From Chondrocystis sp. NIES-4102 (GTDB taxonomy: Bacteria > Cyanobacteriota > Cyanobacteriia > Cyanobacteriales > Xenococcaceae), in assembly GCA_002368355.1 (NCBI GenBank), contig AP018281.1, forward strand, positions 3,472,001-3,536,000: 64,000 nucleotides of DNA, given 5' to 3'. Below are positions 8,316 to 57,820 of this stretch, piece by piece. Every line of letters begins with the position of its first letter. Position 1 is the stretch's first letter. The notes below the pieces were generated by a model, which had not been told where the DNA came from, made no database searches, and saw only the letters and a list, made by a program, of their open reading frames with translations. A program made the position numbers and the translations under genes.

Positions 8316-9842
8316 ATGAAATTAGCTTATTGGATGTATGCTGGGCCTGCACACATCGGTACTCTACGTATTGCTAGTTCCTTTAAAAATGTTCATGCTA
8401 TTATGCACGCTCCTTTGGGAGATGATTATTTCAATGTCATGCGCTCAATGCTAGAAAGAGAACGCAATTTTACCCCAGTGACAGCCAGTGTGGTAGATCG
8501 AAACGTTTTAGCAAGAGGATCACAAGAAAAGGTCGTAAACAATATTACTCGTAAAGATCAAGAAGAACATCCAGATTTAATTGTCCTCACCCCCACTTGC
8601 ACCTCTAGTATCCTACAAGAAGATCTACAAAACTTTGTCAGTCGCGCCCAAATGGATACCCAAGGAGATGTCTTACTGGCAGATGTAAATCATTATCGCT
8701 ACAACGAATTACAAGCAGCAGATCGCACCCTGCATCAAATAGTCAAATACTATATAGAAAAAGCAGGCAAAAAAGGTGAACTCATAACTGAAAAAACTGA
8801 GCAACCCTCGGTAAATATCATAGGTATTTCTACTTTAGGATTTCACAACCAGCATGATTGCACTGAGTTAAAACGCCTGATGGCAGACTTAGGTATTACA
8901 GTAAACGAGGTACTTCCTGATGGTGCATCAGTACATAATCTTAAGAATCTTACCCGTGCTTGGTTTAATCTAGTTCCCTATCGTGAGTTAGGTTTAATGA
9001 CGGCTAAATATCTAGAGTCGGAATTTGCCATACCTTATGTAGATATTTCTCCTTTAGGGGTAGTTGAAACCGCACGCTGTATTCGTAAAATCCAACAAAT
9101 AATTAATGATCAAGGAAAAACGGTAGATTACGAAGAATATATAAATAATCAAACTTTATATGTTTCCCAGGCTGCTTGGTTTTCTCGCTCAATAGACTGT
9201 CAAAACCTCACAGGTAAAAAAGCGGTAGTATTTGGAGATAATACCCATGCAGCAGCTATAACCAAAATATTAGCTAGAGAAATGGGAATACAAGTAGTTT
9301 TAGCTGGAACTTACTGTAAATACGATGCAGACTGGTTTAGAGAGCAGGTAAGCGAATATTGCGATGAAGTTCTAATTAGTGATGATAACGCTGAAATAGC
9401 TAATGCGATCGCCAAGCATGAACCAGCAGCAATTTTTGGTACACAAATGGAACGTCATGTGGGTAAACGTTTAGATATTCCCTGTGGAGTAATTGCAGCA
9501 CCTATTCATATTCAAAACTTCCCCATTGGATATAAACCCTTTATGGGATATGAAGGGACAAATCAGATTGCCGATTTAGTCTATAATTCCTTTACCCTGG
9601 GTATGGAAGATCACCTATTAGAAATCTTTGGCGGACACGATACTAAAGAGGTGATTACTAAAGGTATTTCCGCAGATTCCGATCTAAATTGGGATAAAGA
9701 AGCTAAAGCAGAATTAGCTAAAGTTCCAGGTTTTGTAAGAGGAAAAGTCAAACGTAATACAGAAAAATTCGCACGCGATCGCAATTTCTCCGAAATCACT
9801 TTAGAGGTGATGTATGCTGCCAAAGAATCAGTTGGGGCATAA
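8316..9842 (+). CDS. chlB: Light-independent protochlorophyllide reductase subunit B
   Basis: 508 residues, the usual length for ChlB. With ChlN it forms the catalytic component of the dark-operative protochlorophyllide oxidoreductase, which reduces protochlorophyllide using electrons from the ChlL iron protein. The N-terminus [20 protein letters not shown] is highly typical. Asp36 (PLGDDYF), the unusual fourth ligand of the NB [4Fe-4S] cluster, is present; other landmarks are [23 protein letters not shown] and [19 protein letters not shown]. The C-terminal DUF/PCP-like domain ([20 protein letters not shown]) is complete. GGGAGAG precedes the ATG. chlL and chlN are not adjacent. Confidence 0.98.
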
Positions 9843-9981: not shown

Positions 9982-10010
9982 TTGACCTGGCTACCCTTAC
10001 GGCATATTAA
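9982..10010 (+). promoter_or_regulatory. Candidate sigma-70-type promoter of rplU-rpmA
   Basis: TTGACC (9982-9987) and TATTAA (10005-10010) are separated by exactly 17 nt. Transcription would begin near 10017, leaving about 10 nt before the rplU ATG at 10027. This also argues against a TTG start at 9982 for rplU. Confidence 0.5.
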
Positions 10011-22620: not shown

Positions 22621-25236
22621 ATGAGAATCCTCAAAACTCAAACATTACGTGGGCCAAACTATTGGAGCATTCGGCGCAGTAAGCTGATTGCTATATTATT
22701 GGATCTAGAAGAATTAACTGAAAAGCCATCGAATGAGATTCCAGGATTTTATGATGGTTTAATTCAGGTACTACCTAGTTTAATTGAACATTACTGTTCC
22801 CGTGGTCGTCGTGGCGGTTTCCTCGAAAGAATCAAGGAAGGGACACTAATGGGGCATATTATCGAACACGTTGCCCTCGAATTACAAGAACTTGCAGGAA
22901 TGCCTGTAGGGTTTGGTAGGACTAGGGAAACTTCTACCCCAGGTGTGTTTAATGTAGTTTTTGAATATATTGAGGAGCAAGCAGGTCGCTATGCAGGTAG
23001 GGCTGCGGTGAGATTGTGTCATTCGATAGTAGAAACAGGTACATATCCTGCTATTGAACTCGAACAGGATTTAACTGATCTTAGAGAATTATACGCCAAT
23101 AGTGCTTTAGGCCCTTCGACAGAAACAATTATTCAAGAGGCAGAAGCCAGAAAAATTCCCTGGATGTGGTTGAGTGCTAGGGCAATGTTACAGCTTGGGT
23201 ATGGGGCAAATCAAAAGCGGATTCAAGCAACGTTGAGCAATAATACCAGTATTTTAGCCGTAGAACTTGCCTGTGATAAGGAAGGAACGAAAACCATGCT
23301 AGGTAATGCAGGTATACCAGTTCCTAAAGGCACAGTAATTAAATATTTAGATGAATTAAAACAGGCGATCGCTGATGTCGGGGGTTATCCTATCGTTCTT
23401 AAACCTCTAGATGGCAATCACGGTCGAGGCATTACTATTGATATTAATGATTGGTCAGAAGCTGAGGCTGCCTATGATTTAGCTAGTCAAGCTTCTAAAA
23501 CCCGTTCTGTTATTGTTGAGCAATATTATCAGGGCAACGATCATCGTGTCTTGGTTATTAATGGTAAAGTGGTGGCGGTAGCAGAAAGAATTCCCGCCCA
23601 TGTGATTGGTGATGGTCAATCGACAGTTAAGGAATTGATTGAGATTACTAATCTTGATCCTAAACGCGGAGAGGGTCACGATAAGGTTTTAACTAAAATC
23701 GTTATAGATTCCACTTCTCAGGCTGTATTAGCAAAACAAGGGTATGATTTAGATTCCGTTATTCCTGCACAGTCGGTTGTTTATTTACGGGCAACAGCTA
23801 ATTTAAGTACTGGTGGGGTAGCAGTCGATCGCACCGACGAAATTCACCCTGAAAATGTCTGGCTAGCTCAAAGAGTTGCTAAAATTATCGGTTTGGATAT
23901 CGCAGGGATTGATATTGTCACTTCAGATATTAGTCAGCCTCTAAGAGAAACTAAAGGAGTAATTGTTGAGGTTAATGCTGCCCCTGGTTTTAGAATGCAC
24001 GCCTCCCCTAGTCATGGACTTCCCCGTAATGTCGGGGCTTCTGTATTGGAGATGTTATTTCCCAACAATGCCCCAACTCGCATTCCTATTGTGGCTATTA
24101 CAGGTACTAACGGTAAAACAACTACTACCCGTCTTACTGCCCATATTTATCGTCAAACAGGTAAAGTAGTCGGCTTTACTACTACTGATGGAATTTATAT
24201 TCAAGAATATCTAGTTGAAACGGGAGATAATACTGGACCCTATAGTGCAGGTACAATTTTAAAAGATCCGACTGTGGAAGTAGCCATCCTAGAAACAGCT
24301 AGAGGCGGTATCCTACGCTCAGGTTTGGCTTTTGATCAATGTGATATAGGCGTAGTGTTAAATGTAGCTGCTGATCATTTGGGTTTAGGTGGAATTGAAA
24401 CTATCGAACAGATGGCAAAAGTTAAAGCGGTGGTAGCTGAAAGTGTTAAAGCGGAAGGATATGCCATTCTCAATGCTGATGATCCCTTAGTGGCTGCTAT
24501 GGCAGAAAAACTTAATTGTAAAGTTGCCTATTTTTCAATGAATCCTGATAATCCGATCATCATAGAACACTGTCGGCGTAATGGTTTAGCTGCAATTTAT
24601 GAACAGGGATATTTATCAATTTTAGAAGGGCAATGGACATTAAGGATAGAAAAAGCTATTAATATTCCCATGACTATGGGGGGAATGGCTAATTTTATGA
24701 TTGCTAATGCTTTGGCTAGTTGTTTGGCTGCCTTTGCCCAGGGAGTTGATATAGAAATAATTCGCCGAGGAGTACGCACTTTCCAAGTTTCCGCCGAACA
24801 AACCCCAGGTAGAATGAATTTGTTTAATTTGGGGGATTATCATGTTTTAGTAGATTATGCCCATAATCCTCATGGATATCAAGCTGTAGGCGATTTTGTG
24901 CGCAATTGGGAAGGAGAGAGAATTGGTGTCGTGGGGGGTCCAGGCGATCGCCGTGATGAAGATTTAATTTTACTTGGTAATATTTCTGCCCAAATATTTG
25001 ATCAAATTTTAATTAAAGAAGATGAAGATCCAAGAGGTAGAAGTGTTGGGGAAGTTGCCGATTTAATTACTAAAGGTATTTGTCAAGTTAATCCTAATCT
25101 TAACTATAAAGTGGTTTTAGAGGAAACAGAGGCTATTAATCTTGCTTTGAATCAGGCACAAAAAAGTAATTTAGTTGTGGTTTTTCCCGACAAAGTTAAT
25201 CAGGCAATTAGTCTAATTAAAGATCGCATTAAATAA
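22621..25236 (+). CDS. cphA: Cyanophycin synthetase
   Basis: 871 residues, as in CphA1. It polymerises Asp and Arg into multi-L-arginyl-poly-L-aspartate. An N-terminal cyanophycin-specific domain (about 1-160; RILKTQTLRGPNYWSIRR) is followed by an ATP-grasp domain (about 210-480; PIVLKPLDGNHGRGI, RVLVINGKVVAVAERIPA, IVEVNAAPGFRMH), and a Mur-ligase-like domain from about 490 (ITGTNGKTTTTRLTAHI P-loop; LETARGGILRSGL; YAHNPHGY). Two active sites add Asp and Arg in turn. It comes after cphB. A perfect 16-bp AT palindrome at 25233-25248 overlaps the stop codon. Confidence 0.98.
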   Translation: MRILKTQTLRGPNYWSIRRSKLIAILLDLEELTEKPSNEIPGFYDGLIQVLPSLIEHYCSRGRRGGFLERIKEGTLMGHIIEHVALELQELAGMPVGFGRTRETSTPGVFNVVFEYIEEQAGRYAGRAAVRLCHSIVETGTYPAIELEQDLTDLRELYANSALGPSTETIIQEAEARKIPWMWLSARAMLQLGYGANQKRIQATLSNNTSILAVELACDKEGTKTMLGNAGIPVPKGTVIKYLDELKQAIADVGGYPIVLKPLDGNHGRGITIDINDWSEAEAAYDLASQASKTRSVIVEQYYQGNDHRVLVINGKVVAVAERIPAHVIGDGQSTVKELIEITNLDPKRGEGHDKVLTKIVIDSTSQAVLAKQGYDLDSVIPAQSVVYLRATANLSTGGVAVDRTDEIHPENVWLAQRVAKIIGLDIAGIDIVTSDISQPLRETKGVIVEVNAAPGFRMHASPSHGLPRNVGASVLEMLFPNNAPTRIPIVAITGTNGKTTTTRLTAHIYRQTGKVVGFTTTDGIYIQEYLVETGDNTGPYSAGTILKDPTVEVAILETARGGILRSGLAFDQCDIGVVLNVAADHLGLGGIETIEQMAKVKAVVAESVKAEGYAILNADDPLVAAMAEKLNCKVAYFSMNPDNPIIIEHCRRNGLAAIYEQGYLSILEGQWTLRIEKAINIPMTMGGMANFMIANALASCLAAFAQGVDIEIIRRGVRTFQVSAEQTPGRMNLFNLGDYHVLVDYAHNPHGYQAVGDFVRNWEGERIGVVGGPGDRRDEDLILLGNISAQIFDQILIKEDEDPRGRSVGEVADLITKGICQVNPNLNYKVVLEETEAINLALNQAQKSNLVVVFPDKVNQAISLIKDRIK

Positions 25237-26180: not shown

Positions 26181-26435
26181 TTTGGTATAAGATAAAGGTT
26201 TAAGCAAAGGTTAGGACTTAAAATCACGCAAAGACATTAAAACGCAAAGAGGTTTTAGAAATCTTTTAATCTATCTTGATTGTTGCTATATAAGCTATCC
26301 CTCTTTAGTTAATTAGGTATAAGAAAAGGGGCAGTTGGCAATTGGGATTTATGATTCAGGCTTAGGTAATCATTACGGAGATTATTGTTAATTTCTTAAT
26401 AGCTTATCCTGTTCTTTGATGGGAGATAATATTAG

Positions 26436-26583
<148 letters not shown>

Positions 26584-26677
26584 TTTTTGTATTTCATATT
26601 ATATTAAGGAGCAAAAATATCTATAATGAAATAATTTAAATATCCCTAAAGCTAAGAACCTAAAAAATATCTCCTTA

Positions 26678-29609: not shown

Positions 29610-29704
29610 CAGTGTTGCTCCTTATCTTACCCTTACCAGTTTATCAAGGTTGTGTGTTGTGACATTAACATTACCTCAAAGATTTAGATGCTCATAATTA
29701 TACT

Positions 29705-29908
29705 TATATGAATTATTTAAATGTTGGCTACAAATAGAACGGTTTTTAGGTAGTAAGTAATCCCACAAGGGGACAATGTAAGTAATAGATTTTTTCAGAC
29801 TTTTGACTCCTGACTCCTGACTTCAGGAGTGCATTCGCTCAAGGCATGGAAACCGTACCGTTAGCACAGCACCGCTCCTGACTCCTTATATATTTGTAGC
29901 ATTTTTGT
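29705..29908 (+). repeat. Dispersed repeat, copy C with internal insertion
   Basis: Same orientation as copy B and about 3.27 kb from it. Identical from TTATATGAATT through GGTAGTAAGTAAT, then with few changes to ACTCCTTAT and GTAGCATT. It carries about 55 extra nt (29823-29877), starting TTCAGGAGTGCATTCGCTCA and ending GCACAGCACCGCTC, inside the heptamer zone. Confidence 0.88.
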
Positions 29909-29923
29909 TGCAATTAAAACCCC

Positions 29924-29977
29924 ACTATATATAGCGTATTATAGGCAAAAAATATAATTACCCCCCTACATATAGTG
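29924..29977. promoter_or_regulatory. Inverted repeat upstream of the CyRepA1-like gene
   Basis: CACTATATATAG (29924-29935) and CTACATATAGTG (29966-29977) are inverted copies with one mismatch and a 30-nt spacer. The first arm contains the perfect palindrome CTATATATAG. They may be operators or initiator-binding sites (iterons) for the replication protein encoded 44 nt downstream. Confidence 0.45.
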
Positions 29978-30021: not shown

Positions 30022-33018
30022 ATGGATTATTTAGGTGAATGGCAAGCTAGCGGTGTCGATGAGGAATTGACTCGTTTAAATGTAGTTGCACTTGACGGTA
30101 CTTGCCCAGCAGAATATTTACTATATTCAAATTCTATACCCAGGAGAAACGATGGCAGAATTAATGAAAGATTTCTTCAGCGTTATACCCATACGGATGC
30201 TGGTGGTTGGTGGTGTTCGGGAATTGATGTGTTAACTGGCGAAGCTGATATTTGGGGATGTTTTAAGCCCGATCGCCCTCGTCATGATGCTGATAAAGTT
30301 ATTAAGTATGAGCATCCGCCTAAAACCGCCACTGGTTTATTTGCTTTAAAAGTACCCCTGAATATTTGGCAGAAAATCGCCGATCGCGCCAAAGTTAAGT
30401 TAGTTTCTACGGATATTATCGAAGACAGGGAGGATTTTGGTTTTTGGCAATGGTTGATTAATCATCCCGAAGTCCCTTTATGTATTACTGAAGGGGCAAA
30501 AAAGGCAGGATCATTGTTATCAGCAGGTTATGCGACAGTGGCTTTACCTGGAATTTTTAATGGTTATCGCACGCCTAAAGATGCGACTGGTAAAAGGATT
30601 GGTAAGTCTCATTTAATTCCTCAATTGGCAAAGTTAGCCACCCCTGGGCGACAAGTATATTTTGTTTTTGATCAAGATTCTAAACCTAAAACCATTCAAG
30701 CAGTAGCAGCAGCAATTAGGAAGACGGGTTATTTATTACAGCAAATTGGTTGTCAGGTAAAAGTTGTTAGTTGGGATAGTAAACTGGGTAAGGGAGTAGA
30801 TGATCTAATTATTAATCACGGTCAAGATTATTTTGCTCAAGTTTATGACCAGGCTTTAGACTTAGCTACTTGGAAAGCTTTAGCTTGGAGGAATTTAACT
30901 TATACTGCCGATCTGCAATGCAATAGTCGTTATTTACCATTTGATATTCCCCCCCAGACGCGCTTAATTGGGATCAAATCTCCTAAAGGTACAGGTAAAA
31001 CCCAAGCCTTATCTAAAATAGTAGCAAGAGCGATCGCCACGGGGCAAAAAGTTTTAGTGATCGGACATCGAGTACAACTGGTAAAACAGTTATGTCAACG
31101 CTTTGGGCTTAGTTATGTAACTGAGGTACATTGTCACAAGGCTTCTTTGGGTTATGGTCTTTGTATTGATTCTCTTCATGGCTTTTCAATGGCAAAGTTT
31201 AACCCTAATGATTGGGTAAATAGTTTAGTAATTATTGATGAAGTTGAACAAGTATTATGGCACGCCCTTAATTCTAATACTTGCAAAGATCGGCGAGTGG
31301 AAATTCTTAAGTCGTTTAAGGTGTTGATGCAGAATGTTTTAACCCAAAACGGACAAGTATATATAACCGATGCGGATTTAAGTGATATTTCCTTAGATTA
31401 TCTTGTTTCCCTATCGGGAATTGAGCTTAAACCTTATATTATTGAGAATCAATGGCAGGGTGATCCTCAATCTACCTGGAAAGTTTATAATTATTCTGGT
31501 CAAACTCCTAAAAAACTCTTAGCTAACCTAGAAACCGATATTCAACATGGTGGCAAACCCTTTATCTGTCTTTCAGCCCAAAAGTTAACTAGTAAGTGGA
31601 GTACCCAAACCTTAGAAGCTTATCTACATAAGAAATTTCCTAATAAACGCATCCTGCGGATCGATTCGGAATCTCTAGCAGATCCCCATCATCCTGCTTA
31701 TGGCTGCATTTCCCAATTAGAGCAAATATTATGGCAATACGACATGGTAATCGCCAGCCCCTCAATTGAGACAGGGATTTCCATTGAACTAAGAAATCAT
31801 TTTACAGGAGTTTGGGCGATCGCGCAAGGTGTCCAAGCAGAAAATGCTGTGCGTCAAACTTTATCGCGTCTACGTCATAATGTTCCCCGACATCTTTGGT
31901 GTGCTAAATATAGTTTTAATACCATCGGTAATGGTTCAACTTCGATTCCTGCTATACTCACTTCCAATGGGCGTTTTACTCAATTAAATATACGTTTACT
32001 GCAACAAGCGGATTTTGCTTATTTAGATGATTTAGATACAGGTTTTCAAGCAGAATCACTGTTGTGTTGGGCAAAAATGGCAGTTAGATATAATGCAGGG
32101 GCGATTAATTATCGTGGCACAATTATAGCTGGATTAAGGGCAGAAGGACATGAAATTATAGATGCTAAGAAGTTTCAGTTTTCCCCCGCTATACAGCCAG
32201 CATCCCCAGCAGATAGTTGTCTAGTTGAAGCCATTACCGCTATTAGTACCCAAAATTATTTAGCTGAGTGTAGCGCGATCGCCACTGCTATTGATTTAGA
32301 TGATCAACAATATCAAACCCTCAAAAAAAGTCTAATTAAATCCTTAAGCGATCGCCGTAGGTTACGCAAGTATGAATTGAAACAACGTTATCATTTACCT
32401 ATTACTCCCGAATTAGTATCCCTTGATGATCAGGGTTGGTATCAAAAGATTAGATTACACTATTTTCTAACGGTTGGTCGTGCTTATCTAGCTGATCGCG
32501 ATACTTTGGTGGCACGGAAACTAATAGATCAAGGTAATGGTAGTTTATTTTTACCCGATTTTAATAGTTCCCAATTGGGGGCAATTGTTGGGACTTTAGA
32601 ACTTTTGGGTATTCCTATTTTACTGCAACTTACTAGACCATTACGCAATACTGATGAGGATCTACAATCTTTAGCTGCGATCGCCCTCAACCATCGTCAA
32701 GAAATTAAAACTATTTTAAATATTGGCATTGCCAAAAGTTATAGTCCGATCACAATTGTCAGCCGTCTTTTAGATAAAATTGGTTACAAAATTCAATGTG
32801 TGCGTTACGAAAAAATAAATTCTAAACGGGTTAGGGTGTATCAAATTCTTTCCCCAGATGATTTACGTCAGCAGGTGTTTAGTTATTGGTTAAATATTGA
32901 TTCCCAATCTCCTGGTAATTCTCTACTTTGGGCGGTTAATCGTCTTAATCATTCTACTAAGCTAACATCTCAAAGCAGGCAGGAAGCTAATTATTTTCAG
33001 TTTAGTTTGGATATTTGA
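30022..33018 (+). CDS. Plasmid replication protein, CyRepA1-like
   Basis: 998 residues, large and of the class called plasmid replication protein, CyRepA1 family, in cyanobacteria. N-terminal region (YLLYSNSIPRRNDGRINERFLQRY) leads to a DUF3854/Toprim-like domain: LCITEGAKKAGSLLSAG (about 155), YFVFDQDSKPKT (about 212). Then a helicase-like ATPase: SPKGTGKTQALSKIV P-loop (about 320-328), LVIIDEVEQVL (about 400), VIASPSIETGISIEL and RQTLSRLRH (arginine finger region). Primase-helicase action at a plasmid origin is expected. The gene is on what looks like chromosome; no parA, parB or mobilisation gene adjoins. It appears intact. Confidence 0.85.
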   Translation: MDYLGEWQASGVDEELTRLNVVALDGTCPAEYLLYSNSIPRRNDGRINERFLQRYTHTDAGGWWCSGIDVLTGEADIWGCFKPDRPRHDADKVIKYEHPPKTATGLFALKVPLNIWQKIADRAKVKLVSTDIIEDREDFGFWQWLINHPEVPLCITEGAKKAGSLLSAGYATVALPGIFNGYRTPKDATGKRIGKSHLIPQLAKLATPGRQVYFVFDQDSKPKTIQAVAAAIRKTGYLLQQIGCQVKVVSWDSKLGKGVDDLIINHGQDYFAQVYDQALDLATWKALAWRNLTYTADLQCNSRYLPFDIPPQTRLIGIKSPKGTGKTQALSKIVARAIATGQKVLVIGHRVQLVKQLCQRFGLSYVTEVHCHKASLGYGLCIDSLHGFSMAKFNPNDWVNSLVIIDEVEQVLWHALNSNTCKDRRVEILKSFKVLMQNVLTQNGQVYITDADLSDISLDYLVSLSGIELKPYIIENQWQGDPQSTWKVYNYSGQTPKKLLANLETDIQHGGKPFICLSAQKLTSKWSTQTLEAYLHKKFPNKRILRIDSESLADPHHPAYGCISQLEQILWQYDMVIASPSIETGISIELRNHFTGVWAIAQGVQAENAVRQTLSRLRHNVPRHLWCAKYSFNTIGNGSTSIPAILTSNGRFTQLNIRLLQQADFAYLDDLDTGFQAESLLCWAKMAVRYNAGAINYRGTIIAGLRAEGHEIIDAKKFQFSPAIQPASPADSCLVEAITAISTQNYLAECSAIATAIDLDDQQYQTLKKSLIKSLSDRRRLRKYELKQRYHLPITPELVSLDDQGWYQKIRLHYFLTVGRAYLADRDTLVARKLIDQGNGSLFLPDFNSSQLGAIVGTLELLGIPILLQLTRPLRNTDEDLQSLAAIALNHRQEIKTILNIGIAKSYSPITIVSRLLDKIGYKIQCVRYEKINSKRVRVYQILSPDDLRQQVFSYWLNIDSQSPGNSLLWAVNRLNHSTKLTSQSRQEANYFQFSLDI

Positions 33019-39752: not shown

Positions 39753-41543
39753 ATGACTATTTTTCTCACCTTAGGGGTTGTAGTTGCTGCCCTTATATGT
39801 TTTATTGCCGAATGGTTACCCGTCGATATCACAGCCTTATGTGTAGCAGTAATATTAATCATTCTTAAATTAGTAACTCCTGAAGAAGGCATAGCAGGGT
39901 TTGGTAATTCTGCTACCATTACCGTTATGGCAATGTTTATCCTAAGTGCAGGTATCACTCGCACAGGTGTCGTACAGGTATTTCGGGATCTATTAATTAA
40001 ATGGGGTGGCAAAAGTATTACTCGCCAAATACTAGTTATGGGCTTTTTAGTCGGCCCAATTTCTGCTTTTATTAATAATACGGCGGTAGTTGCCATATTT
40101 CTACCTATTATTGAAGACTGGTGTAAAAAACAAGGGATATCTCCTTCCAAGTTATTGATGCCCCTATCTTTTGTCACTATTTTAGGCGGGATGATTACAG
40201 TAATTGGCACATCAACCAACGTATTAGCTAGCGGAATATCTAAAGAGTTAGGATATGGGGAGTTTAGTTTATTCCAGTTTACAGGCTTAGGTATCATTAC
40301 CTTTTTAATTGGGTTAGCATATTTAGCTTTTATCGCCCCTCGCTTGCTACCCAACCGCAAAAGATTGTCTAAAGATTTAGTCAGTGAAGAATATGGACTA
40401 AAAGACTATGTAGCAGAAGTTATTGTAACACCCAAGTCCCAATTAATCGGTAAAACTTTCCGTTCAGAGCGATCGCGCAATAATTTTAATGTGGATATTT
40501 TAGAAATTATTCGTGATGGTGAACGTTTACCCCAGCCTGTAACCAGTCGAGTTATCAATGCCGATGATATTTTGCTAGTGAGAGGCAAAACGGAAGATGT
40601 ATTAAAGATTAAAACTGAACAGGGTTTAGATATCTTCCCCGATGTAAAATTTAACCAAAAGAACCTGGAGACTGAGTTAACTTCGGCAGAAGAAGGCATT
40701 GCAGAAGTTTTAATTTTATCTAATTCTCGTCTAATTGGGACAAGTCTTAAAGATTTGCGTTTTCGCCAACGATACAACCTAACCGTACTGGCAATGCGTC
40801 GTGGGGAAGAACTAATTAGAGATAGATTAGGTAAAGTACGTTTGAAATTTGGCGATTTATTGCTCGTACAAGGAGCAAAACAAAGTATCCTCGGTTTGCA
40901 AACCACTAGGGAATTACTAGTAATGGAACAAAAAGAACCAGAAACCGTTCGCCGTAATAAAGCCTGGATAGCAGTAGCAATTATAGTCGGAGTGGTTTTA
41001 GTGGCAGCTTTTAATTGGTTACCAATTCTAGTTAGCGCTTTACTTGGAGTGTTATTAATGATTATTACTGGTTGTCTGCAACCTGGAGAAGTTTATGGTG
41101 CAGTGCGTTGGGATGTAATCTTCCTGCTGGCTGGTTTAATTCCTTTGGGTACAGCGATGGAAAATTCTGGGGCTACCCAATGGCTAGCAGATAATTTATT
41201 AGCAGTGGGGGGGAGTTTAAACGGGTACTGGATATTATTATTCTTTTTTGTAATTACATCTCTACTGACAGAAATACTATCTAATAACGCCTCAGTAGTG
41301 TTACTAATTCCCATTGCAGTTAAAGTAGCAGAATCCTTAAATCTTAACCCTATTGCCATGATGTTCGCGGTTACTTTCGCAGCTTCCAATAGCTTTATGA
41401 CTCCCATAGGCTATCAGACTAATACTATGGTTTATACCCCTGGAGGTTACAAATTTAGTGATTTCTTTCGGGTGGGCGCACTACTCAATCTTTTGATGGC
41501 AATTGTCACTCCGATATTAATTATTGCTTTGTATGGACTTTAA
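39753..41543 (+). CDS. SLC13/ArsB-type permease with two TrkA-C domains
   Basis: 596 residues. Membrane half 1 (1-200) contains MFILSAGITRTGVVQ, PISAFINNTAVVAIFLP and MLPLSF-like SFVTILGGMITVIGTSTNVL, the di-acidic/NT-rich motif of the DASS family; half 2 (about 390-596) has LLTEILSNNASVVLLIP and SNSFMTPIGYQTNTM. Two RCK-C/TrkA-C domains (about 215-295 and 310-385) lie between. Such proteins move anions, typically sulfate or dicarboxylates, with Na+. The NTS/NNA motifs are intact. It starts the ion-transport block and is followed by an antiporter 79 nt later on the same strand. Confidence 0.93.
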   Translation: MTIFLTLGVVVAALICFIAEWLPVDITALCVAVILIILKLVTPEEGIAGFGNSATITVMAMFILSAGITRTGVVQVFRDLLIKWGGKSITRQILVMGFLVGPISAFINNTAVVAIFLPIIEDWCKKQGISPSKLLMPLSFVTILGGMITVIGTSTNVLASGISKELGYGEFSLFQFTGLGIITFLIGLAYLAFIAPRLLPNRKRLSKDLVSEEYGLKDYVAEVIVTPKSQLIGKTFRSERSRNNFNVDILEIIRDGERLPQPVTSRVINADDILLVRGKTEDVLKIKTEQGLDIFPDVKFNQKNLETELTSAEEGIAEVLILSNSRLIGTSLKDLRFRQRYNLTVLAMRRGEELIRDRLGKVRLKFGDLLLVQGAKQSILGLQTTRELLVMEQKEPETVRRNKAWIAVAIIVGVVLVAAFNWLPILVSALLGVLLMIITGCLQPGEVYGAVRWDVIFLLAGLIPLGTAMENSGATQWLADNLLAVGGSLNGYWILLFFFVITSLLTEILSNNASVVLLIPIAVKVAESLNLNPIAMMFAVTFAASNSFMTPIGYQTNTMVYTPGGYKFSDFFRVGALLNLLMAIVTPILIIALYGL

Positions 41544-55977: not shown

Positions 55978-57363
55978 TTAACTCTTCGAGTATAACGCTG
56001 GCTTCTCCAAACCTCGGAGGGTAGAGAGAACTTCCTTTAAGGTACTATTAGTAGTAGATGCAATCACTACTGGATTCCCTTTACAGCGTTTTATAGTGGG
56101 GAACAAGTCCAGCCCCACTCTCTTGACATTGATAGAGGCTGAAACGTCTCTATCAATCAAAAGGTTTAATTCTTCATCCCAATACTCCCGAATACCGCAA
56201 TCAGTAAAGACAAACTCATCTTTGTACGGCAACAACATTGAGGTGTATTGTGGATTTACAGGTATTACCAAAGCCCCAGCTTTTTCAGCTTTGAACTTCA
56301 GTATGTTGAAAAACTGACCAAAAGCAGCATCAGCCCAAGACTTATTTAATCCTGATTTCGCCGACTGCCCATTAGGTAAAAATTTACCATTAGTATCAGT
56401 TTTTGCTTTATTCCTTCGACTCAACCCAACAAGATTGAGCTTTTCATGAAAGAAAACTTTTTTGCCCGTTTTCAGTAGCGCGTGGGCAGTATTGTAAGCG
56501 TGATCTTTTCTAGCTCTAGCTATTGAGGAGTGAAGTTTTGCTTCCCGTTTTGCTAGTTTTCGTCTTGATTTACTACCTTTCTTTTTGGTAGATTTGCGTT
56601 TTGATACCTTGGCTAGCTTGTCTCGTGAGGAGCGAAAAGACTTAAGGCTAGGCAATTTAACACCTTCGCTGGTAGCCAGATAATCATCTTCATGCAGTAC
56701 TGCATCCATCCCCAAGGAATTATTCCAACTGGGAGTAATATTTGATTTGAAGTCAGGTACAGAATCATCTTGAAGCCGTAGATTAATATACCATCCGTCA
56801 CTTTTTTTGATTATCTGTGCTTGCTTTAATACTGCACCATTAGGCAGTGGACGATGATGGCGCACATTGATTATGCCAATTTTAGGTAATGATAAATAAA
56901 GCCATTTGCCTCCAACAGAACAAGAATGTAGTTTGAAGGAGTCAAACACTATTGACCTAAAACGAGCAGTGTTTTTATATCTTGGTTTTCCACTACGCTT
57001 TCCTTTTGAATCACCAGCAATGAACCGCTCAAAAGCTAGTTTGACTCTTTTGCACACCTCTTGTAGTGTTTGAGATGGCACAGAGTTAAAATCTAGCAAT
57101 TCACCACTCCAGCCTACAATAACCAAATCTTGTTTGATTACGGGTAACTGCTTTTTCTGTCCGTAAAACTCAGGTTTGTCCTTGAGTTCAGGCAAATGAC
57201 ATACCAAAAGACATCTATCAATGTAGCTACGATTTTGTTCCCACCAGTCAAACCGCTCGCCAAGCTGTCGATTATACCAATACTGACAAATCCGAAGCCA
57301 GTCATTGAGTACTAGCTTGTGTTCTGTAGTGGGCTTTAGTCGGTACTGATAATTGTAAATCAA
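55978..57363 (-). CDS. tnpB: RNA-guided endonuclease TnpB (IS605 OrfB), zinc ribbon lost
   Basis: 461 residues. RuvC-like triad seems present: Asp220 in LGMDAVLH, Glu307 in VFFHEKLN and Asp404/406 in LLIDRDVSASINV. The N-terminal WED/REC-like part has KPRYKNTARFRSI. Between Glu and last Asp, where typical TnpB has a CxxC...CxxC zinc ribbon, this one reads NPQYTSMLLPYKDEFVFTDCGIREYW with only one Cys. TnpB cuts DNA at the donor site guided by an omega RNA made from the element's right end. The gene is uninterrupted and ends at the right-end hairpin. Confidence 0.9.
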   Translation of the reverse strand: MIYNYQYRLKPTTEHKLVLNDWLRICQYWYNRQLGERFDWWEQNRSYIDRCLLVCHLPELKDKPEFYGQKKQLPVIKQDLVIVGWSGELLDFNSVPSQTLQEVCKRVKLAFERFIAGDSKGKRSGKPRYKNTARFRSIVFDSFKLHSCSVGGKWLYLSLPKIGIINVRHHRPLPNGAVLKQAQIIKKSDGWYINLRLQDDSVPDFKSNITPSWNNSLGMDAVLHEDDYLATSEGVKLPSLKSFRSSRDKLAKVSKRKSTKKKGSKSRRKLAKREAKLHSSIARARKDHAYNTAHALLKTGKKVFFHEKLNLVGLSRRNKAKTDTNGKFLPNGQSAKSGLNKSWADAAFGQFFNILKFKAEKAGALVIPVNPQYTSMLLPYKDEFVFTDCGIREYWDEELNLLIDRDVSASINVKRVGLDLFPTIKRCKGNPVVIASTTNSTLKEVLSTLRGLEKPALYSKS

Positions 57364-57409
57364 AGTCAGCGTTGTTATAATTGGATACAGTTATTGTAGC
57401 ACAAGAAGA

Positions 57410-57820
57410 ATGAGGAATGATTTTGTTTCTAGTGCCAGGTCTGTATCTGATTTAAAAGCTCATTTAGTTTTGACAACCAAGTATAGAAAAAAGGTTTTAA
57501 CTGGCGAAATGATTAGCAGATTGAGAGACGTGATAACTGAATTGTGTGAAAAATGGGATTGCAAAGTGATTGAGTTCAATGGAGAAGACAATCATATACA
57601 TTTGTTATTTCAGTACTACCCACAAATGGAACTACCCAAATTCATAGGCAATATTAAATCAGTTACCAGCAGGAGATTGAGACAAGAATTTCCAGAAGAA
57701 ATAAACAAAATTTATTGGAAAAAAGTATTTTGGAATGAGTCTTACTTTATAGCTTCTTGTGGTGGAGTTACAATATCTGTATTAAAAAATTATATCGAGA
57801 ATCAAAATACGCCAAGCTAG
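57410..57820 (+). CDS. tnpA: IS200/IS605 transposase TnpA (Y1 HUH)
   Basis: 136 residues, complete. HUH motif at His62-x-His64 (NHIHLLFQY), catalytic Tyr128 in VLKNYIENQ, with KAHLVLTTKYRKKVL at the N-terminus and FWNESYFIASCGGVTISV preceding the Tyr helix. It moves the element as single-stranded DNA by peel-and-paste. Both HUH and Tyr are intact, so it may be active. Starts ATG 57410 with AGAAGA in front. Confidence 0.95.
   Translation: MRNDFVSSARSVSDLKAHLVLTTKYRKKVLTGEMISRLRDVITELCEKWDCKVIEFNGEDNHIHLLFQYYPQMELPKFIGNIKSVTSRRLRQEFPEEINKIYWKKVFWNESYFIASCGGVTISVLKNYIENQNTPS

Follow-up and report, generated by a model that had tools for sequence, protein, structure and literature searches.

A gene of the CyRepA1 family, which normally replicates plasmids, has been passed down on the chromosomes of a group of cyanobacteria together with its own conserved two-box DNA element. 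It survives intact in reduced, endosymbiont-like genomes that lack the usual chromosome initiator DnaA, and it may therefore help to start chromosome copying, although initiation is inferred from sequence alone. The gene was found in a window of 64,000 nucleotides from Chondrocystis sp. NIES-4102, spanning positions 3472001–3536000 of C1, the 4,515,000-base chromosomal contig of this genome (G000). A first-pass annotation had described an intact CyRepA1-type replication protein lying among housekeeping genes and had read it as an integrated plasmid or as a chromosomal replicon still able to initiate. The observation itself is confirmed. Its interpretation is only partly supported: our analysis gives no support to an integrated plasmid, whereas a chromosomal replicon is the reading that we tentatively favour.

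The open reading frame at 30022–33018 (+) begins with ATG, contains no internal stop and encodes 998 amino acids. It scores 513.7 bits against the NCBIfam CyRepA1 profile NF042913 (cut-off 200) over residues 314–925, and 183.5 bits against Pfam DUF3854, described as Toprim-related (PMC10079941), over residues 141–269. The protein thus comprises an N-terminal region (1–140), the DUF3854/Toprim-like part (141–269), an SF2 helicase core (about 310–690) and a helical C-terminal region, with the helicase borders read from conservation and the predicted model. The neighbours named by the first-pass annotation are present: chlB at 8316, rplU at 9982, cphA at 22621 and two transporters at 39753 and 41623. 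Immediately upstream are genes for a UvrD-like helicase and a flavin reductase, and downstream is one for a PAS-GAF-GGDEF protein. None of the six neighbouring proteins scanned between 22.6 and 36.2 kb, a subset of the ORFs of the window, is a par or mob protein. The 26.4–33.2 kb unit proposed as a possible excised circle has no plasmid-like boundaries that we could see. A 129-nt direct repeat at 26426 and 29694 flanks the helicase and reductase genes rather than CyRepA1, and it belongs to a dispersed repeat with at least 68 matching pieces, all listed ones on C1 (40 of 247 candidates were scored). No Rfam family matched the window at the gathering score. The same genome carries further CyRepA1 homologues on four smaller contigs (C2–C5), and its dnaA lies at C1:406806.

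The gene belongs to a chromosomal orthologue lineage. Among 60 relatives, 25 of the 26 from the same family have it: the best matches are 74–79% identical in the 12 other genomes of the genus (one of them split over two contigs) and 62–69% in 13 of 14 other genomes of the family, the exception (G015) having only a 31% match. Among 388 genomes of the class, 32 (G000 included) hold a copy at 54% identity or more, all in the order of the window. Full-length copies score at least 1,146 bits and one cut by a contig end (G290) scores 987, whereas the other listed matches are 40–51% identical and reach 900 bits at most. Only the two best candidates per genome were scored, at a limit of E 1e-180, so that a weak or broken copy would be missed. 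In the genome family designated f8, 48 of 50 genomes hold at least a recognisable copy. In the closed or nearly closed genomes inspected (G007, G010, G013, G020, G033, G035, G054, G294, G449 and G463), the copy lies on a chromosome-sized contig of 3.1–7.9 Mb.

The 240 matching plasmid records are all under 60% identical, with the top-ranked at 50.6%, although records of this or very near genomes may be left out of that set. Of 61 matched phage records, none was over 80% of the query, and identity was 22–25% in the ten rows shown; viral contigs gave one relative at 47%. A tree was built from 65 chromosomal rows, with partial and near-redundant ones left out, and 12 plasmid rows of our choosing (four from the smaller contigs of G000 and eight others). 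It places all chromosomal rows on one side of a branch (SH-aLRT 100) and recovers the genome families as single groups (10 label changes, the least possible; support 93 for f8 and 25 for family f5). This is a quick tree without bootstrap, rooted on the plasmid rows, and some plasmid branches are long.

The same gene in the same chromosomal place in many relatives had been named beforehand as evidence against an integrated plasmid, and this condition holds for one neighbour. A divergent D-Ala-D-Ala-dipeptidase-like gene (Pfam Peptidase_M15, two of them tested) adjoins CyRepA1 in 15 relatives: the 12 other genomes of the genus, both genomes of genus g2, and G016. Other neighbours vary between genera, and in G000 even this one has moved away, its relative lying at C1:79670. 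The stretch at 29694–29912, made of the dispersed repeat and just upstream of the conserved element, is the probable breakpoint that parted the two genes. That recombination in it moved CyRepA1 to its present site is an inference.

The gene is under purifying selection, with dN/dS of 0.03–0.17 in 12 chromosomal pairs and 0.081 for the UCYN-A-like pair G430/G431. Of 23 catalytic or motif positions, 19 are invariant in all 65 chromosomal rows. These include the Toprim-type residues E157, D217 and D260-D261 and the helicase residues K326 (Walker A), D406-E407, and S579, T584, Q612, R616 and R618 (motif V/VI). D219 is kept in 60 rows, G323 in 63, T327 in 63 and D452 in 62. All ten dnaA-less rows in the tree keep K326, D406 and R616.

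Two near-palindromic boxes, with consensus of about YCYATATHTAGYGTTTT and ACGCTAYATATAGTGTTA, precede the gene. In the window, box 1 (CTATATATAGCG) occupies 29925–29936 (+) and box 2 (CTACATATAGTG) occupies 29966–29977 (+), 41 bp start-to-start from box 1 and starting 56 bp before the ATG. These are the only box matches in the 64 kb, box 1 also matching on the other strand. When spacing was left free (up to two mismatches per box, −160 to +60), 53 of 59 chromosomal loci had two boxes, 40–43 bp apart in 49 and 31 bp apart in four, and at no other distance; the ten-base step is one helical turn. Only one box was found in G053 (family f28), G449 and G436, and none in the three genomes of family f2, two of which lack dnaA. 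With spacing set, 46 of 59 loci had at most two mismatches in total, against 0 of 5,900 dinucleotide shuffles. The motif was defined on these same loci, so the shuffle figure flatters it; the spacing and the genome scan depend less on that. None of 10 plasmid copies had the pair or fewer than five mismatches (of the 12 plasmid rows, pAQ1 has too little upstream sequence as fetched and Cylindrospermum was left out). The C2 copy of G000 showed one box-like site with a mismatch but no pair at the right distance. A scan of 24 genomes, with a fixed 41-bp spacing and a slightly stricter fourth base, found 12 places with at most two mismatches: seven at this gene and five elsewhere, each of the latter with two mismatches. 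The four places with at most one mismatch all lie before this gene, and a reversed control gave one match; in the other 17 genomes the scan did not find the gene's own pair. Single boxes are not clearly enriched in sampled DNA (5, 3 and 5 matches in G431, G054 and G000 against 2.6, 2.1 and 3.4 expected). The spacer is 71.5% A+T against 62.9% further upstream in 52 loci. Conserved cis sites of this kind next to the gene are what a chromosomal initiator would show, but an auto-regulatory operator would show the same.

The gene is retained in genomes that have lost dnaA in family f8, but it is not a general replacement for dnaA. In f8, dnaA (PF08299) is missing in nine of 50 genomes, and all nine keep an intact orthologue of 993–1022 amino acids. 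Two are the single-contig genomes G430 and G431 (1,491,611 and 1,443,806 bases), which lack psbA/D and which we take to be UCYN-A from their size and gene loss; UCYN-A is stated to lack dnaA (PMC6315102). G461 and G383 (2.5 and 3.0 Mb) have no psbA/D match and G362 and G420 (2.8 and 3.1 Mb) only pieces, most with stops; these four are probably diatom spheroid bodies. The other three, of genus g182, keep psbA/D-like genes or contig-end pieces of them. Retention by chance is not excluded, as UCYN-A keeps perhaps a quarter of ancestral genes. Moreover, four of 41 dnaA-bearing f8 genomes lack the gene or have it broken (G268; G444, 79% complete; G446; G452), so it can be dispensable, and the contrast with 0 of 9 dnaA-less genomes is too thin for a statistical claim. 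Across the 388 class genomes dnaA is not found in 17, all in the same order, of which six have the orthologue and 11 do not. Within that order, dnaA loss is no commoner with the orthologue (6 of 32) than without it (11 of 52; the 84 order members were counted by hand). Among the 60 relatives dnaA is not found in nine, of which three (G026, 76% complete; G032; G048) have the orthologue and six do not. A simple replacement of dnaA by chromosomal CyRepA1 was therefore rejected as a general rule.

Profile and structure comparisons give mixed and limited signs of a resemblance to an origin-binding helicase. Pfam PF02399, the herpesvirus origin-binding protein, scores 26.4 bits for the UCYN-A-like protein and 27.1 for pSYSA CyRepA1 (cut-off 20), but among the four proteins scanned it is not listed for the window and pAQ1 proteins. 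PHROG 3712 (‘replication origin binding’) matches the window protein at 3.9e-11, after PHROG 4913 (‘replication’) and 10417 (‘helicase’). An AlphaFold2 model from eight sequences is of moderate confidence (pLDDT 71, pTM 0.62; residues 1–104 mostly under 50). Its four best PDB matches are HSV-1 origin-binding protein (UL9) with OriS (E 4.5e-14 to 4.6e-12), followed by Mfd at 1.2e-8 and other transcription-repair and repair helicases. However, the UL9 superpositions have 12–14% identity, TM of about 0.33–0.35 and rmsd of 17–20 Å, and much of the match is the shared SF2 helicase fold; a Toprim-like domain is not known in UL9. A PDB sequence search gave only two matches at E 0.35, to type 3 secretion ATPases, taken as chance.

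Published work provides both one of the closest known systems and the sharpest conflict with a cis origin. CyRepA1 (Slr7037) of pSYSA from Synechocystis PCC 6803 is 41% identical, shares the Toprim-type and helicase residues, and has the DUF3854 and helicase parts in the same order. It is plasmid-borne with the ssr7036/asRNA1 control region, lacks the paired boxes, and is experimentally required for pSYSA as an autonomous replicon (PMC9978351). Chromosomal CyRepA homologues have already been reported in 80 of 145 cyanobacteria, with a function that needs validation (PMC10899382); outside its Supplementary Data 1, the parts consulted describe no orthologue lineage, upstream boxes or link to dnaA-less genomes. 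In the sections consulted, library screens name no chromosomal region: one used 1.5–2.5-kb inserts, too short for this 3-kb gene (PMC10079941), and the other, in Synechocystis 6803 itself, yielded mainly pSYSX and pCC5.2 (PMC10899382). In a partial sample of the literature, without supplements, no title or abstract opening linked CyRepA to UCYN-A or to chromosome initiation, and no experiment on a chromosomal copy was seen. Picosynechococcus PCC 7002 keeps a single origin position without DnaA, while dnaA-less Geminocystis and C. aponinum show flat profiles (PMC7198777). Picosynechococcus-like genomes carry the gene, whereas the six dnaA-less genomes of family f14, which we guess to be the Geminocystis and C. 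aponinum group, have no match at the level searched. The PCC 7002 replication peak, however, is said to lie around dnaA at position 1 (PMC7198777), whereas the orthologue lies at about 0.23 Mb in two Picosynechococcus-like chromosomes, G054 and G274. In G054, whose 4,675-base contig encodes a Rep 93% identical to that of pAQ1, dnaA is at 1 kb. This conflicts with a cis origin more sharply than any other observation.

Our best explanation, held tentatively, is that a plasmid-type initiator was probably captured by the chromosome in the ancestor of a cyanobacterial clade and inherited vertically since. The analysis itself establishes orthology, chromosomal location, purifying selection, intact Toprim-type and helicase residues, the helically phased pair of boxes and retention in dnaA-less reduced genomes; the remainder is inference. 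In this view the protein would bind the two boxes, perhaps as a dimer, as UL9 does at its two-box origin. Binding would auto-regulate the gene and open the A+T-rich DNA nearby, and the Toprim-like and helicase parts would help to prime and load the replisome. The protein would then be a DnaA-independent initiator, the main one where dnaA is lost, as in UCYN-A-like and spheroid-body-like genomes, and a parallel or backup one elsewhere, as probably in the dnaA-bearing strain studied here.

A domesticated, auto-regulated helicase-primase of replication restart or repair is possible and only somewhat less favoured. Here the protein or another regulator would bind the promoter through the boxes and the protein would work in trans at stalled forks, with no origin at the locus. 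In the genus, box 2 abuts a −10-like TATGAT, as an operator would, the best pair matches in the 24 genomes lie at this promoter, gene position and neighbours vary, and the gene is broken or absent in some dnaA-bearing genomes. No replication-linked skew was seen at the gene or elsewhere in G431, G054 or G000, although no half-chromosome signal appeared anywhere in the 58, 60 and 60 five-kb blocks sampled. Against this reading, characterised CyRepA proteins are replication initiators of plasmids, and the predicted fold matches an origin-binding helicase before others. Auto-regulation and initiation are not exclusive. A plasmid-related role, such as regulating resident CyRepA1 plasmids in trans or carrying out incompatibility, would fit the four other CyRepA1-bearing contigs of G000. 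It is unlikely, as the gene is kept in single-contig reduced genomes (G430, G431, G461, G362, G383 and G420) whose only match at E 1e-100 is this gene, and plasmid copies lack the paired boxes. A recently integrated plasmid, possibly with an excised circular form, has in its favour the family name and the rearranged upstream flank in this genome. It is very unlikely given the orthologue across families, the lack of any match of 60% identity or more among 240 plasmid records, the absence of par or mob proteins among the six neighbours scanned and repeats that do not flank the gene.

What starts chromosome replication in cyanobacteria that do not need, or lack, DnaA is left open in the work describing them (PMC7198777). 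A vertically kept initiator-type protein with a conserved, phased cis-element of about 55 bp offers a concrete candidate gene and DNA site for this role, also for UCYN-A. In its furthest-reaching form, which remains tentative, this would be the missing DnaA-independent initiator of chromosome replication in much of the clade, including the endosymbiont/organelle UCYN-A and diatom spheroid bodies, working at a two-box, helically phased origin in its own promoter much as UL9 works at its own. It would show how a plasmid replicon can become a chromosomal one.

Two stretches of the window, 29694-29912 and 26426-26587, belong to a dispersed repeat family with at least 68 matching pieces in the Chondrocystis sp. 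NIES-4102 genome. This count is a lower bound, as 40 of 247 candidates were scored, and all of the listed pieces lie on the chromosome (contig C1). The window also carries an IS200/IS605-type element at 55978-57820, in which a gene for a TnpB-family RNA-guided endonuclease and a transposase gene are arranged in divergent orientation.

A Picosynechococcus-like genome (G054) has a 4.7-kb pAQ1-type CyRepA1 plasmid (locus L215, on contig C2) and a separate chromosomal CyRepA1 orthologue at 0.23 Mb (locus L057, on contig C1). In genus g61 of family f2, two genomes without a dnaA match were found beside one with it (G416, G418 and G374); all three have the CyRepA1 orthologue, but none has boxes upstream of it.

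In the relative G044, the only dnaA match, on contig C97, is a partial one with a stop inside (a 58-aa frame), and this genome has no CyRepA1 match. Six genomes of family f14 (G039, G320, G334, G359, G368 and G385) and one of family f17 (G042) are nearly complete, yet are without a dnaA match and without the CyRepA1 orthologue. Two of these, G039 and G042, have no CyRepA1 match at all at E 0.001. Thus, another route of initiation probably exists in these genomes.
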